DNA from: Weeksellaceae bacterium
GTDB taxonomy: Bacteria; Bacteroidota; Bacteroidia; Flavobacteriales; Weeksellaceae
DNA: 64,000 nt
Direction: 5' to 3'
Assembly: GCA_019459455.1 (NCBI GenBank)
Contig: JAIBEX010000009.1
Coordinates: 124,001 to 188,000 of the forward strand
Shown here: piece by piece, positions 40,812 to 62,603 of the stretch
Layout: every line of letters begins with the position of its first letter
Numbering within the stretch: position 1 is the stretch's first letter
Program-made: the position numbers and the translations under genes
Notes under the pieces: model-generated
Database searches by the model: none
What the model was told of the DNA's origin: nothing
Seen by the model: only the letters and a program-made list of their open reading frames with translations

Positions 40812-40883
40812 GGCCTATTCGTCTAGTGGTAAGGACTCAAGATTTTCATTCTTGCAACAGGGGTTCGATTCCCCTATAGGCTA
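40812..40883 (+). tRNA. tRNA-Glu (anticodon TTC)
   Basis: 72 nt, complete cloverleaf. Acceptor GGCCTAT pairs with ATAGGCT (G-U at the first pair). D-arm GTCT/GGAC; anticodon stem CAAGA/TCTTG with loop TTTTCAT giving anticodon TTC. T-arm AGGGG-TTCGATT-CCCCT. Discriminator A; the 3' CCA is not encoded (next bases CAA). It reads GAA/GAG. Confidence 0.96.
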
Positions 40884-41241: not shown

Positions 41242-41316
41242 GGCCCGTTCGTCTATCGGTTAGGACCTCAGATTTTCATTCTGGTAAGAGGGGTTCGACT
41301 CCCCTACGGGCTACCA
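41242..41316 (+). tRNA. tRNA-Glu (anticodon TTC), with encoded CCA
   Basis: Body 41242-41313 (72 nt) plus CCA at 41314-41316. Acceptor GGCCCGT/ACGGGCT with G-U first pair; anticodon stem TCAGA/TCTGG with loop TTTTCAT giving TTC; T-arm AGGGG-TTCGACT-CCCCT. Same anticodon as the copy at 40812 but clearly diverged in acceptor, D-loop and variable region. It follows rpsT and precedes a terminator. Confidence 0.96.
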
Positions 41317-56316: not shown

Positions 56317-59163
56317 TTATTTCAACTTTTTCTTCACAGCAACTTCTTCATAAACTTCCAGAATGTCGCCAACCTCGATATCATTGTATCCTTTAAGGTT
56401 CAATCCGCATTCGTAGCCCTTCGTCACTTCCTTCACATCGTCCTTGAAGCGTTTTAAACTTTCCAGTTCACCGTCGAATTTCACGATACCGTCGCGCAGC
56501 AATCTGATTTTCGAGTTTCGGGTCACTTTCCCTGTCAGAACCATACAGCCTGCGATGGTGCCGACTTTGGTAATTTTAAAGGTTTCACGGATCTCAACAT
56601 TTCCTATCACCTGCTCTTTGATTTCAGGAGAAAGCATTCCTTCCATCGCTTCTTTCACCTCCTCAATGGCTGCATAGATTACGGAGTAAGTCCTGATTTC
56701 AATTTCTTCCCTGTCTGCAAGTTCTTTTGCATTTACACCGGCCCTTACATTAAATCCAATGATGATTGCATCCGACGCGGTGGCCAGATTCACATCTGAT
56801 TCTGTAATAGGACCTACACCCTGATGAAGTATGTTTATACTGATCTCTTCTGTAGAAAGTCTCTGTAACTGATCCGAAAGTGCCTCCACGGAACCGTCCA
56901 CATCCCCTTTCAGGATAATGTTAAGTTCTTTGAACTCTCCAAGGGCAATCCTTCTTCCGAGTTCTTCCAGTGTGGTATGTTTCTTCGTACGGATTGACAG
57001 TTCTCTTTGTAGTTGCTCCCTTTTTGTAGCAATTAACTTCGCTTCTCCTTCATCCTCAAATACCCTGAACTTATCACCGGCACCAGGAGCTCCATCCAAA
57101 CCAAGAATCGTTACCGGTATAGATGGTCCTGCAGTTTCCATTGGTTTCCCTCTTTCATCAAGCATTGCCTTTACTTTACCGTGGTTTTTTCCGGCCAGGA
57201 CATAATCTCCAACCTTCAATGTTCCACTCTGTACGAGGATGGTTGCCACATAGCCCCTACCTTTATCAAGAGAAGCTTCAATGACTACCCCCTGGGCATT
57301 CTTATCAGGATTTGCCTTCAGTTCCAGAATTTCGGCCTGTAGCAATACTTTTTCAAGAAGTGCATCCATGTTGTTACCGAACTTTGCCGATACCTCCTGA
57401 GATTGTACGTTACCGCCCCACTCCTCAACGAGGATGTTCATCCCTGAAAGTTGCTGACGAACGTTGTCTGGGTTTGAACTGGGCTTATCCACCTTATTCA
57501 AGGCAATAATCATCGGCACACCTGCCGCCTGCGCATGGGAAATTGCTTCCTTCGTTTGCGGCATCACATCATCATCCGCTGCAATCACAATAATTGCTAT
57601 ATCGGTAATCTGTGCACCTCTCGCTCTCATTGCGGTAAAGGCTTCGTGACCCGGAGTATCCAGGAACGTAATGCGCTGTCCGTTTTCAAGTTTTACGTTG
57701 TACGCACCGATGTGCTGTGTAATTCCTCCGGATTCCCCTGCGATTACGTTGGTTTTTCTGATGTAATCCAGCAACGAGGTCTTACCGTGATCCACGTGAC
57801 CCATTACCGTTACAATAGGAGCTCTAGAAATTAAATCCTCTTCATTATCAACTTCTTCATCCATCGCTGATTCCTCGAGATCTGCATCAGAGAATTCAAT
57901 CTTGAATCCAAACTCATCAGCTACAAGCAGCAACGTATCTGCTTCCAAACGCTGATTCATGGTCACCATAACTCCTAAAGAGAAGCAAGCTGAAATCACT
58001 TCCGTAGGACTAACATTCATCAAACTCGCAAGTTCCCCTACGGTAATGAATTCTGTGACCTTCAACGTGCGGTCTGCCGCGTCGATTTGCTCCTGAAGCT
58101 CGTCCTGCTCTCTTCTGTACGTTCTTTTCTCTTTTCTGTATTTCGAACCTTTGGATTTACCTCCCTTATTGGTGAGTTTTTCCAGGGTTTCTCTTATCTG
58201 ATTCTTAACCTGTTCGTCGGTAAGTTCTACAGGCATTACCCGGTCTGTACCTCTGCGCGATCCCCCAGGCTTGTTGCCCGTTTGATGTGGAGGTCTGTTG
58301 CCCGGCGGACGGGTGCCCTGACCCTGACCCGGCGGACGGGTGCCCTGCGTACCGGTTCCGGCTCCAGGCTGGGTTGCTCCAGGTGCGTTCGGTTTCTCAA
58401 TACGCTTCCTTTTCTTCTTGGCCGCGTTGTTTCCGCCCTGAGGTTTTGGCTTGTTAAACTGTGATAAATCTACGGTTTGTTTAAGGATTTTTGGCCCGTC
58501 CAGCTTTTGATAAACAGTTGCGTGTTTGTCTGAACCAAGGTTTTCCGATTCCTGAATTGCATGGACACCCGAAACCGGAGTTTCAGTTTCCGGAGTCTGA
58601 GGTTCCTGCACTGGTGCAGGAACCTCTTCTGCTTTCGGAGTTTCCTTCACTTCAGGAAGTGGTTTTTCCTCTTCTTTTTTTGGCTGTTCCTTTTTAGAGG
58701 ACCTGGGTTTATTGCTTTCGATTTGGGATAAATCAATTTTATCCAAAATCTTAAATTCCTGTTTTTCCTGAACGGGAGTGACTGGTTCGGCCTTTACCTC
58801 TTCCTTCACTTCCACCTCCGGCACTTTTTCTTCCTGGATTTCCGGCTTTTTAGGATTTAGGTCTATTTTACCTAAAATTCTGGTTTCCGGCCTTAAGGAT
58901 GCCTTGGCCTTAACTACTTCGGGCGCCTTTTCCTCAATCACCAGTTTTTCCTCCGGCACCTTGGACATCACCACTTCGTGTGACGCCTTGCGCTGTTCGC
59001 TATCCTTTGCAAACTCCGCTCTCAATGCACCGTATGCCGCTTCGTCCAGTTGAGCGTTAGGATTTTCATCAACTGCAAAGCCTTTCACCTGCAGAAACTC
59101 TACAAGTCTCGACATTGAAATATTGAATTCCTTTAACGCTTTATTTAATCTAATTTTTGGCAT
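56317..59163 (-). CDS. infB: Translation initiation factor IF-2
   Basis: 948 residues. IF2-N motifs occur at the start and around 370-420; a long low-complexity Pro/Glu/Lys and Gly/Pro/Arg linker occupies 60-345. The GTPase domain has G1 'GHVDHGKT' at 455-462, 'DTPGHEAF' and 'NKVDKP'; domains II-IV follow. The linker contains three similar segments ('[13 protein letters not shown]', '[15 protein letters not shown]', '[14 protein letters not shown]'). IF-2 brings initiator tRNA to the 30S subunit. 66 bp after nusA. Confidence 0.98.
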
Positions 59164-59229: not shown

Positions 59230-60465
59230 CTAAGCTTCAAGCTCGTCTTTCAGGATTTGTTTTACCTCATCGATTTGCTCCTCTTCCAGGTCAACAAGAT
59301 TTACCAGCGCCTCTGTGTCTTTATCCAGTACACTTCTCGCCGTGTTAAGTCCAACTTTCTTGAACTCCTTAATAATCCATTCGCTGATTTCATCGCTGAA
59401 CTCGTCCAGTTCAACATCATCATCTTCGCTGGTTTCGCGGTAAACATCAATTTCGTAGCCGCTTAACCAGGAGGCGAGCTTAATGTTCTGCCCCTGTTTT
59501 CCGATTACTTTCGAAATTTCTTCCACCGGTGTATATACCATCGCATAACCCTGTTCAGGATTGATCTCTATCTTATTTACGGTTACATTCCCCAAGGCCC
59601 TTTTCACCATAATCTCAGGATTTTTGGACCATTGGATCACATCTATGTTTTCATTCTTCAGTTCACGTACAACGCCATGAATCCTGGATCCCTTCACCCC
59701 TACACATGCTCCTACCGGATCTATTCTGTCGTCGTAGGCATCAACCGCAATCTTCGCTTTCTCGCCCGGAATCCTTACCACCTTTTTAAGGATGATGGTT
59801 CCGTCCTGAATTTCAGGAATTTCAAGTTCCAGAAGTTTTTCCAGAAATCTTGGTGAGGTCCGAGAAACAATGATCTGAGGCTTGGAACCTTTAAAATCCA
59901 CACTGTCCACAATTGCACGGATGCTTTCGCCCTTCTTGAAGAAATCGGAAGGGATCTGATTTTCTTTCGGCAGGATGAATTCATTGTCATCATCATCCAA
60001 AAGAATGGCGTGCTGCTTTCTTACGTGATGTACCTCGCCAGTTACAATTTCCCCGATCCTGTCGTGGAACTGCTCATACAAGAGTCCGTTGTTGTGCTCC
60101 TGAAGTTTGGTAGCCAGAATCTGCTTCAAGGTCAGGATATTTCTGCGGCCAAGCTGTGCAATAGGTATTTCCACGGTATATTCCTCACCTATTTCAAATG
60201 TGGAATCTATCTTCTTTGCTTCTGTAATTTCAATTTCAAGATCATCGTCTTCGGACATGCCGTCCTCTACGATGGTCTTATTCAAAAAAATCTGAAAGTC
60301 ACCTTTATCTGGGTTTACGATCACATCAAAATGATCGTCCGAGTCAAATCTTTTTCTAAGAAGCGTTTTCAGTGAATCCTCAATAATCGCCATCAAGTCA
60401 ATCTTACTGATGCTTTTCTCGTCTTTAAAATCGCCAAACGCTTCAATTAACGCTAAACTGTCCAT
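59230..60465 (-). CDS. nusA: Transcription termination/antitermination factor NusA
   Basis: 411 residues. N-terminal RNA-polymerase-binding domain (1-125), S1 domain ('GEIVTGEVHHVRKQHAILLD') and two KH domains with 'DPVGACVGVKGSRIHGVVRE' and 'VIGKQGQNIKLASWLSGYEI'. It lacks the C-terminal acidic repeats of E. coli NusA, as is usual outside Proteobacteria. It modulates pausing and intrinsic termination. Located between rimP and infB; an attenuator-like terminator precedes the operon. Confidence 0.98.
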   Translation of the reverse strand: MDSLALIEAFGDFKDEKSISKIDLMAIIEDSLKTLLRKRFDSDDHFDVIVNPDKGDFQIFLNKTIVEDGMSEDDDLEIEITEAKKIDSTFEIGEEYTVEIPIAQLGRRNILTLKQILATKLQEHNNGLLYEQFHDRIGEIVTGEVHHVRKQHAILLDDDDNEFILPKENQIPSDFFKKGESIRAIVDSVDFKGSKPQIIVSRTSPRFLEKLLELEIPEIQDGTIILKKVVRIPGEKAKIAVDAYDDRIDPVGACVGVKGSRIHGVVRELKNENIDVIQWSKNPEIMVKRALGNVTVNKIEINPEQGYAMVYTPVEEISKVIGKQGQNIKLASWLSGYEIDVYRETSEDDDVELDEFSDEISEWIIKEFKKVGLNTARSVLDKDTEALVNLVDLEEEQIDEVKQILKDELEA

Positions 60466-60528: not shown

Positions 60529-60996
60529 TTAAAATTTTACTGCTACCAGAGCTTTTTTTATGTCGGTGTACGGAATCTCTCTTTCTTCCACTACATCCAC
60601 TTTTCCTTTCCCCACTTCTTTAGGTTTTCTGTACCGAAGGACCAAGGTAATACTATTTTCATCCATCTTGGCCAGTTCACCCTCAACTTTCGTATTGTCA
60701 TTCAACAGAATATCAAGCTCTCGACCCATGTTTTTCCTGAACTGCCGCTCTGAATTCAAGGGCTCGCTTAAACCGGCACTCATGACCTGGAGTGAGAAAT
60801 CGTGCTCCTCGCGGTCCATGTTGAATTCCACCGCACGGCTGGCATCCAGACAATCCTGCAGGGAAACCCCGTTATCGCCGTCCAGAATCACGGTGATATC
60901 ATCCGCTGCCGAAAATTTGAGATCTATAAGAAAAAGATCTTCCCGTTCCTGCAAGAACTCGCCTAGTAAGCCTGCTATCCTGTCTCTGAATTCCAT
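60529..60996 (-). CDS. rimP: Ribosome maturation factor RimP
   Basis: 155 residues. 'ADDITVILDGDNGVSLQDCL' and 'FSLQVMSAGLSEPLNSERQF' are RimP signatures, followed by a small SH3-like C-terminal domain ending 'YTDIKKALVAVKF'. It assists 30S assembly. First gene of the rimP-nusA-infB operon; the ATG lies about 26 bp after the leader terminator. Confidence 0.97.
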   Translation of the reverse strand: MEFRDRIAGLLGEFLQEREDLFLIDLKFSAADDITVILDGDNGVSLQDCLDASRAVEFNMDREEHDFSLQVMSAGLSEPLNSERQFRKNMGRELDILLNDNTKVEGELAKMDENSITLVLRYRKPKEVGKGKVDVVEEREIPYTDIKKALVAVKF

Positions 60997-61021
60997 AATT
61001 TCTCCGAACGATTAGTGGTAC

Positions 61022-61049
61022 AAAAAAAGGCTTTCTTTCGAAGCCTTTT
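61022..61049 (-). terminator. Leader terminator (putative attenuator) before rimP
   Basis: AAAAGGCTT (61025-61033) pairs with AAGCCTTTT (61041-61049), extended by a T-G pair around a five-base loop. On the minus strand a run of seven T (complement of 61022-61028) follows. It lies downstream of the promoter at 61071-61100 and 26 bp upstream of the rimP ATG, so it would end transcripts before the operon. Confidence 0.85.
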
Positions 61050-61070
61050 CATTTTTCCGTAATTCCTGTG

Positions 61071-61100
61071 CAAATATATATAATATTTTTGACAATGCAA
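61071..61100 (-). promoter_or_regulatory. rimP: Promoter of rimP-nusA-infB
   Basis: Minus strand: TTG (61100-61098), 19 bp, TATATTTG (61078-61071), then CACAGG. Exact consensus. The leader to the rimP ATG is about 70 nt and contains the terminator hairpin. Confidence 0.92.
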
Positions 61101-61286: not shown

Positions 61287-62603
61287 TTGAACATTACAAT
61301 TGTAGGAACCGGCTACGTAGGCTTAGTAACGGGAACAACTTTGGCAGAACTCGGAAATTCGGTATACTGTGTAGACATTGACGAGCAAAAAGTGGAAGGG
61401 ATGAAAAACGGAAACATCCCCATTTACGAACCCAATCTGGAAGAGATGTTTCTGCGCAACATTCAGGCGCAGCGTTTATTTTTCACTACCAATTTAAAAG
61501 AAGCCCTGGACAAGAGTGAAGTAATTTACCTCGCCCTCCCTACTCCACCCGGAGAGGACGGAAGTGCAGACCTGTCCTATGTCCTGGGTGTTGCCGAACA
61601 GATTGGCACCCTACTGAAAGATTATAAAGTGGTGGTGAATAAGTCTACGGTCCCTGTCGGAACTGCAGATAAAGTCCGTGAAACCATTTCTGCAAGGACG
61701 CAGATTCCGTTTGATGTGGTTTCCAATCCGGAATTTTTAAGGGAAGGTTTCGCTGTTGAAGATTCCATGAATCCCTCCAGGGTTGTCGTTGGCTGCAGTT
61801 CCGACAGAGCCAGCGACATCATGACCAAAATCTATCAACCCTTCACCAACACCGGCATTCCCATCATCTTTATGGACGAAAAGTCCTCCGAACTCACGAA
61901 ATATGCCTCGAACTCCTTTTTGGCGGTGAAAATCACCTTCATGAATGAAATTGCGAATTACTGTGAAAAGGTCGGCGCAGACGTTGATAAAGTGCGGCTC
62001 GGTATGGGGTCGGATGACCGAATAGGACACCGGTTTCTGTTCCCGGGCATCGGTTATGGCGGAAGCTGCTTCCCCAAAGATGTGAAAGCGCTTATAAAAT
62101 CCGGAAAGAAAGAGGATTTCGATTTTAGGCTGCTGGAAGCTACAGAACAGGTAAATATTTCCCAAAAAATCATCCTTATTTCAGAAATAGAAAAGTACTT
62201 TGGGGGCAACCTTCAGGGGAAAAGGATCGCATTATGGGGGCTTGCATTTAAGGCAAACACCGATGACATCCGCGAGGCTTCGTCTCTGGACAACATCCGG
62301 ATCCTGCTTGAAAAAGGCGCGGAAATCGTTGCTTACGATGCCATTGCCGAAGAAAATGTGAAAAAACTCCTGGGCGACCGGATTACTTATGCAAAGGACA
62401 TGTACTCCGCATTGGAGGGAGCCGACTGTCTTCTTATAGCAACGGAGTGGCCGGAATTCAAGAATCCCAATTTCAAACTGATGAGCGACCGCCTGAAAAA
62501 CAAGGCCATTTTTGACGGAAGAAACATGTATGCTTTGGAAACCCTGGAGCAAAACGATTTTTACTACAAGAGCATCGGCCGCAGGACCATCTCAAACAAA
62601 TAA
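61287..62603 (+). CDS. ugd: UDP-glucose/GDP-mannose-type nucleotide-sugar 6-dehydrogenase
   Basis: 438 residues starting at TTG (61287), which gives the family N-terminus 'MNITIVGTGYVGLVTG' with the NAD motif GTGYVG at 7-12. The catalytic C261 sits in 'FPGIGYGGSCFPKDV', and the C-terminal UDP-binding domain has 'GLAFKANTDDIREASS'. It oxidises a UDP-hexose to the uronic acid in two steps; UDP-glucose is the most likely substrate but family members differ. First gene of a nucleotide-sugar cluster; rfbB starts 16 bp later. Confidence 0.94.
   Translation: MNITIVGTGYVGLVTGTTLAELGNSVYCVDIDEQKVEGMKNGNIPIYEPNLEEMFLRNIQAQRLFFTTNLKEALDKSEVIYLALPTPPGEDGSADLSYVLGVAEQIGTLLKDYKVVVNKSTVPVGTADKVRETISARTQIPFDVVSNPEFLREGFAVEDSMNPSRVVVGCSSDRASDIMTKIYQPFTNTGIPIIFMDEKSSELTKYASNSFLAVKITFMNEIANYCEKVGADVDKVRLGMGSDDRIGHRFLFPGIGYGGSCFPKDVKALIKSGKKEDFDFRLLEATEQVNISQKIILISEIEKYFGGNLQGKRIALWGLAFKANTDDIREASSLDNIRILLEKGAEIVAYDAIAEENVKKLLGDRITYAKDMYSALEGADCLLIATEWPEFKNPNFKLMSDRLKNKAIFDGRNMYALETLEQNDFYYKSIGRRTISNK

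Follow-up and report, generated by a model that had tools for sequence, protein, structure and literature searches.

The window, that is the whole stretch of 64,000 nucleotides analysed here, carries the genes rimP, nusA and infB on its minus strand, preceded by a short leader with a promoter and a hairpin, and a divergent neighbouring gene on the plus strand. In order of position, the features are:

56317–59163, minus strand: infB (IF-2), TIGR00487, 822 bits (cut-off 424)
59230–60465, minus strand: nusA, TIGR01953, 348 bits (cut-off 253)
60529–60996, minus strand: rimP, NF002531, 191 bits (cut-off 123)
60975–61052, minus strand: 25-codon frame from the ATG at 61052, passing through the hairpin and ending inside rimP (ORF list)
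61022–61028, minus strand: T7 tract, the putative terminator U-tract, next base G (sequence inspection)
61025–61049, minus strand: putative terminator hairpin AAAAGGCTT-CGAAAGA-AAGCCTTTT (sequence, folding, comparison)
61050–61052, minus strand: start codon ATG at the hairpin base (positional conservation across genera)
61057–61062, minus strand: conserved TTACGG box ahead of the hairpin, with partial complementarity to TGTA at 61022–61019
61071–61100, minus strand: promoter with TTG at 61100–61098, a 19-nt spacer and TATATTTG at 61078–61071 (sequence inspection)
61287–62603, plus strand: divergent nucleotide-sugar dehydrogenase of the UDP-glucose dehydrogenase type (ORF list, profile match)

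The identities of RimP, NusA and IF-2 were assigned with NCBIfam cut-offs, all of which were passed. Elsewhere in the window, two tRNA genes (40812–40883 and 41242–41313, plus strand) were the sole Rfam matches at the gathering threshold, and a plus-strand scan revealed an inverted repeat of 12 perfect pairs around a 4-nt loop (GAGGTTCCTGCACTGGTGCAGGAACCTC, 58599–58626) within the part of the infB coding sequence that encodes the N-terminal part of IF2.

The initial annotation had described a TTG-N19-TATATTTG promoter at 61071–61100 ahead of rimP and, before the rimP ATG at 60996, a nine-pair stem followed by seven T's; the sequence bears out both. Read along the minus strand, the TATATTTG box is followed after 21 nt by the hairpin, composed of the 5′ arm AAAAGGCTT (61049–61041), the loop CGAAAGA (61040–61034) and the 3′ arm AAGCCTTTT (61033–61025), and a further 25 nt separate the T7 tract (61028–61022) from the ATG of rimP. 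All nine pairs of the stem are perfect, three of them G-C, and four of the seven T's lie inside the stem. The TGTA after the T-tract (61022–61019) is CGTA in most relatives. Transcription presumably starts at 61063–61067 on the minus strand, about 5–7 nt past the −7 box, judging by the usual spacing. The annotation was also right that no gene lies between promoter and terminator, yet the ATG at 61052 opens the 25-codon frame, and that first reading overlooked the start codon conserved at the base of the hairpin.

A simple terminator scanner called the hairpin on the plus strand alone (10 pairs, 61025–61049), the minus-strand call being absent because four T's are consumed by the stem. Being near-palindromic, the hairpin reads as a terminator on the plus strand as well, and a dehydrogenase-type neighbour is found inside the fetched flank at 111 of 126 Weeksellaceae loci, as would suit a terminator of the neighbouring gene or of an antisense RNA. 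However, the neighbour in the window is divergent with its start at 61287, and therefore there is no read-in and no upstream gene that needs a terminator here. Furthermore, eight of the loci L001–L027 (L007, L009, L011, L015, L018, L021, L023, L024) keep the leader without a dehydrogenase-type neighbour in the fetched flank, and we regard this origin of the hairpin as extremely improbable.

Folding of the rimP leader as a single sequence is weak evidence, modestly above chance, and it is comparison that decides: 6 of 200 shuffles equal or better the −11.1 kcal/mol of the 41-nt core, and the fold of the 79-nt leader is not unusual, with 62 of 200 shuffles as good. As a control within the same genome we used 464 kb, made up of the window and 400 kb of the same contig, and kept 385 ORFs of at least 120 aa, 20 of which have a promoter of the form TTG-N17-21-TAnnTTTG at most 160 nt upstream of the first ATG. 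Among the corresponding 20 leaders, whose starts were assigned mechanically and some of which are perhaps wrongly bounded, a terminator-like hairpin was present in only one, that of rimP. Likewise, a model (R1) built from 42 aligned rimP leaders scored 79.6 bits at the rimP leader as the sole strong match in this genome, the next best match reaching 25.4 bits. The element is thus unique to rimP in the parts of the genome searched.

For comparison between genomes, homologous leaders were located via RimP in 52 of 59 relatives, 144 of 148 genomes phylum-wide and 100 of 128 in the order, and were read for all 52 relatives, for 70 of the 144 in the phylum set and for 94 of the 100 in the order set; a further set comprised the best 80 of 579 named loci, nearly all of Chryseobacterium or Kaistella. 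The resulting 258 upstream regions (L001–L196 and L199–L260) include some that do not stem from distinct genomes (e.g. L006 and L085), which is why counts are given per non-redundant leader or per genus. The family denoted f3 is taken to be Flavobacteriaceae. Requiring a hairpin with a T-rich tract whose stem core lies at most 60 nt from a TAnn(n)TTTG box, we found such a promoter-linked leader hairpin in 232 of the 258 rimP upstream regions, namely in all 133 of Weeksellaceae, all 23 of family f3, 44 of 49 in the rest of the order and 32 of 53 in the rest of the phylum, where the 21 failing loci often have no TTTG box. An alignment of the leaders across Weeksellaceae had been proposed by the initial annotation; besides the hairpin and T-tract present throughout the family, it revealed five T columns of the T-tract that are invariant in 42 aligned leaders. 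Together with the divergent neighbour, this conservation strongly supports the earlier reading of an attenuator-like terminator in the rimP-nusA-infB leader.

A folding-based search that imposed no promoter condition detected a hairpin in 191 of 196 loci, compared with 53 of 392 dinucleotide shuffles, and 169 of the 191 hairpin-bearing loci have TAnn(n)TTTG at most 70 nt upstream of the hairpin. This finder was substituted for a first one (strict stem, loop of at most 9, no bulge; 142 of 196 loci versus 19 of 588 shuffles) that missed GGCC stems, and it at times picks the wrong hairpin, as in L031, where the terminator of the upstream gene was chosen and hence no promoter lies upstream. By eye, the five missed loci also hold a hairpin, with a T-tract that is broken or preceded by C in L140, L147, L154 and L160 and a four-pair stem in L192. 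Inspection by eye of five distant phylum members (L175, L178, L189, L193, L196) further suggested apparent tandem terminator-like hairpins in the rimP leader, as in E. coli.

Searched against 148 family genomes, R1 gave 124 matches in total, with a match at E ≤ 0.01 in 120 genomes. In 118 of the 148 the match lies directly upstream of rimP, from an overlap of 8 nt to a distance of 56 nt, and the six matches away from rimP all have E ≥ 0.0018. No R1 match adjoining rimP was obtained in 30 of the 148 genomes (genera g9, g16, g18, g21, g28 and g29); six leaders read from R1-negative genera (L030, L032, L033, L036, L038, L042) carry a terminator hairpin with a different stem.

The stems are clade-specific: most of Weeksellaceae have AAGGC(C)TT/AAGCCTT and many loci of the order GAGGGGAC/GTCCCCTC; AAGTGGG/CCCACTT and TCGCCC/GGGCGA are among the stems of more distant loci. 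Pairing is maintained although the stem letters differ between clades. Inside Weeksellaceae, no covariation was detected (13 pairs compared in 42 sequences gave no two-sided change and did not exceed shuffles), and the case for pairing therefore rests on complementarity and on the changes between clades, which came from hairpin searches and are partly circular. A flanking helix formed by TACG and CGTA has 91% of its cells paired in the 42 leaders and no two-sided change; flanking helix and stem together reach 92.9%, compared with 43–65% when the partners are slid, again with no excess over shuffles. As a proven pairing, the flanking helix was dropped, the variants ACAGG and AACGG breaking a pair, and the TTACGG/CGTA pattern is sequence conservation, not proven pairing. 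Many Chryseobacterium leaders (L051–L130) show GATTTAC … GTAAATC around the hairpin.

This conservation beyond the stem, with TTACGG before it and CGTA after the T-tract, could also reflect a hairpin of the mature mRNA that binds a protein, e.g. RimP, IF2 or a ribosomal protein, or confers stability, the T-tract being incidental. That RimP and IF2 both function at the 30S subunit speaks for such a role. Against it, a T-rich tract follows directly after the stem in most loci despite the changing stems, as termination or pausing needs, and we consider an mRNA hairpin of this kind unlikely.

The median stem energy in Weeksellaceae is −9.7 kcal/mol (133 loci) versus −15.4, −16.5 and −15.8 kcal/mol elsewhere. 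Set against the traits of NusA-dependent terminators, for which no threshold was preset, the stem in the window has three G-C among nine pairs and a T7 tract followed by G, and at −9.7 kcal/mol the family stem is weaker than those of other clades. As judged from the sequence, the rimP leader element is probably a NusA-stimulated transcription attenuator of rimP-nusA-infB. RNA polymerase would start just downstream of the TATATTTG box, transcribe about 40–45 nt and then meet an intrinsic terminator whose stem is weak and rich in A-U pairs, where a fraction of the polymerases would be released and the remainder would enter rimP-nusA-infB. NusA bound to the polymerase would aid formation of the weak hairpin, such that abundant NusA would lower its own operon, and in Weeksellaceae and family f3 ribosomes may provide a further input through the start codon at the base of the hairpin. 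We infer that termination takes place at the leader hairpin, that it is partial and that NusA sets its extent. Because there is scant room for an antiterminator before the hairpin, control would most likely be exerted on termination efficiency itself.

Of the possible effectors, NusA is the strongest candidate: according to PMC12288461, NusA of B. subtilis regulates its own expression by stimulating termination in the 5′ leader of its gene, and its effect is greatest where hairpins are weak or U-tracts are interrupted. In the same species, NusG-dependent terminators are described as marked by weak terminal A-U pairs (PMC8060035), and with such pairs in the window stem NusG could share this role or be the main factor. 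No NusA binding site was identified in the leader, and feedback by NusA is plausible by analogy. If the NusA step is true, a leader terminator would govern nusA in Bacteroidota as well, in support of an old and general loop.

The same architecture might instead set the level of the operon without regulation, as a partial terminator or pause of fixed strength. The hairpin is bare, no switch partner is visible, and a median of 27 nt between promoter box and stem core in Weeksellaceae leaves little room for an antiterminator. However, the element is kept at rimP in most phylum loci examined, and in other phyla too according to PMC2965389; it is missing from the 19 other consensus-promoter leaders examined, and the promoter alone could fix the level. 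With the regulated precedent in B. subtilis (PMC12288461) also standing against it, we regard a fixed element as possible but doubtful.

Of 92 non-redundant Weeksellaceae leaders, 84 have an ATG at most 12 nt ahead of the stem core (shuffle mean 20.6), as do 21 of 23 leaders of family f3 (shuffle mean 4.2); these counts are not independent, as the leaders share descent. With one leader per genus, the ATG was found in 24 of 32 for Weeksellaceae, where 5000 shuffles gave a mean of 7.1 and a maximum of 16, and in 9 of 10 for family f3 (shuffle mean 1.9, maximum 7). Elsewhere the ATG was not in excess, with 9 of 44 against an expected 7.9 in the rest of the order and 5 of 32 against 6.0 outside it. 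The columns flanking the conserved ATG are variable when one leader per genus is compared, and the ATG is retained despite a shifted distance to the stem in L015, L021, L024 and L083. Some of the exceptions have GTG or TTG (L019, L027, L041, L139, L140), and 5 of the 92 Weeksellaceae leaders have neither ATG, GTG nor TTG at the hairpin base. A set of 58 leaders used for the ATG was restricted to the GGC...GCCTTTTT pattern and left out L030, L032, L033, L036, L038, L041 and L042, which are included in the family-wide and per-genus counts; the alignment comprises 42 of these 58, with L027 and 15 others left out.

Bacteroidota have their own promoter type and little Shine-Dalgarno pairing. Control by Shine-Dalgarno sequences in Flavobacteriales has been suggested to be limited to rpsU (PMC9976891), and A at upstream positions −3 and −6 favours initiation in Flavobacterium (PMC6847099). 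Among 113 distinct ATG leaders, A is found at −3 in 84% and at −6 in 44%. Sampling per genus yields 10 of 24 at −3 and 12 of 24 at −6; with only 10 of 24 at −3, the favourable context is therefore mostly that of near relatives and gives weak support for initiation.

The frame opened by the ATG ends before rimP in 67 of the 113 distinct leaders, overlaps the rimP start in 24, is in frame in 11 and is open as far as examined in 11. GGC and GGCC stems place the same RNA in different reading frames. Attenuation by a leader peptide, of the trp or erm type, would be suggested by the 25-codon frame traversing the hairpin, but the mixed fate of the frame, its shift between GGC and GGCC stems and the scant room for an alternative hairpin make it very improbable. 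A conserved leader peptide or a frame with control codons was rejected, as frame fate and length vary, and the 25-codon frame is probably not a functional peptide. With the ATG conserved and the frame not, what is selected would be initiation or the letters as such, and not a peptide.

An attenuator that senses initiation is a further reading, in which a 30S subunit or ribosome at the AUG at 61052 would cover the 5′ arm and block the terminator, such that the operon for IF2, RimP and NusA would read the state of initiation. For Weeksellaceae and family f3, we tentatively consider a nusA-infB attenuator gated by 30S initiation at the hairpin-base start codon, with no leader peptide being read. 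This reading, which we hold to be rather unlikely, is compatible with the NusA attenuator, as pausing by NusA would set the time window. It would account for an ATG frequency far above the shuffle means in both families, its variable neighbours and its retention when the spacing shifts, as well as for the GTG or TTG in some exceptions and the A at −3 in most of the 113 leaders. Moreover, a 30S initiation complex can adjoin a promoter-proximally paused polymerase, as reported in PMC12820379. On the other hand, the rest of the order and phylum show no ATG excess, and the switch thus does not need the ATG; some family leaders have no start codon of any of the three kinds, and the A at −3 drops with per-genus sampling. 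The 24–30 nt from the AUG to the T-tract leave little time for a ribosome, the ATG letters could be an RNA-binding motif, and shared descent inflates the counts. If functional, the gate would be a simple route by which translation initiation feeds back on genes that serve initiation itself and the assembly of 30S subunits.

Returning to the attenuator with NusA as candidate effector, we compared it with systems already described. In PMC2965389, the rimP-leader (Naville and Gautheret 2010) has a GGGc...gCCC stem and is ranked as the most widespread of the transcription attenuators, NusA being named as the foremost candidate effector. Like it, the element described here is an intrinsic terminator, a hairpin with a T stretch, in the 5′ UTR of rimP-nusA-infB, with no visible antiterminator and a variable distance to the gene; NusA was proposed there as well (PMC2965389). 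The stems differ: in place of GGGc...gCCC, AAGGCTT/AAGCCTT is found here and GAGGGGAC/GTCCCCTC in many relatives, the GGGc(...)gCCC motif being absent from the window stem AAAAGGCTT/AAGCCTTTT and from those of relatives, with GGGGAC/GTCCCC or others. The corresponding Rfam model RF01770 (cut-off 47 bits) does not match at the leader; a sub-threshold match of 34.6 bits was obtained in this genome away from rimP and outside the window (C17:6064–6165, L197), and over 14 control genomes E. coli alone matches. At gathering and permissive thresholds, Rfam gave nothing credible at the leader, with sraA, STnc130, Phe_leader and STnc220 far below their cut-offs.

A literature search found no published account of termination or NusA control at this leader in Bacteroidota. 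The main text of PMC2965389 has no word beginning with "Bacteroid" or "Flavobacter", and neither rimP nor nusA appears in the main text of PMC7366714, a B. thetaiotaomicron map. For Flavobacterium psychrophilum, a transcriptome study (PMC9723704) includes in a list a structured element 5′ of rimP, which has no Rfam hit and is said to recur in other genera of Flavobacteriaceae. Similar to the leader described here, it is a transcribed structured rimP 5′ region; it differs in being named in a list, the main text of PMC9723704 having rimP once, nusA never and no discussion of a NusA mechanism. This listing speaks for transcription of the leader in a relative and lowers the novelty of the element. 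In line with this, the attenuator idea is less new than first supposed, as the rimP-leader and the NusA hypothesis date from 2010 (PMC2965389).

The attenuator of B. subtilis nusA (Mondal et al. 2016, via PMC12288461) likewise has a leader terminator before an operon that holds nusA. NusA dependence was reported there (PMC12288461), whereas here we infer a role for NusA, and its leader measures about 180 nt (PMC2965389) as compared with about 70 nt here. In the E. coli metY-rimP-nusA-infB operon (L198; RF01770), a hairpin with T7 lies just upstream of rimP, as in the window, its stem in E. coli being GGGC...GCCC, and NusA is said in PMC2965389 to repress the operon; unlike the window, E. coli has a tRNA gene, RNase III sites and a total of two terminators ahead of rimP (PMC6511841). 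With the stem motif absent and RF01770 not matching, we class the Weeksellaceae element as a variant that would act in the same manner as the rimP-leader, and not as a member in the strict sense. The rimP-leader section of PMC2965389 describes no start codon at the base of the hairpin, and the conserved codon found here is, as far as the leader sequences indicate, the new element.
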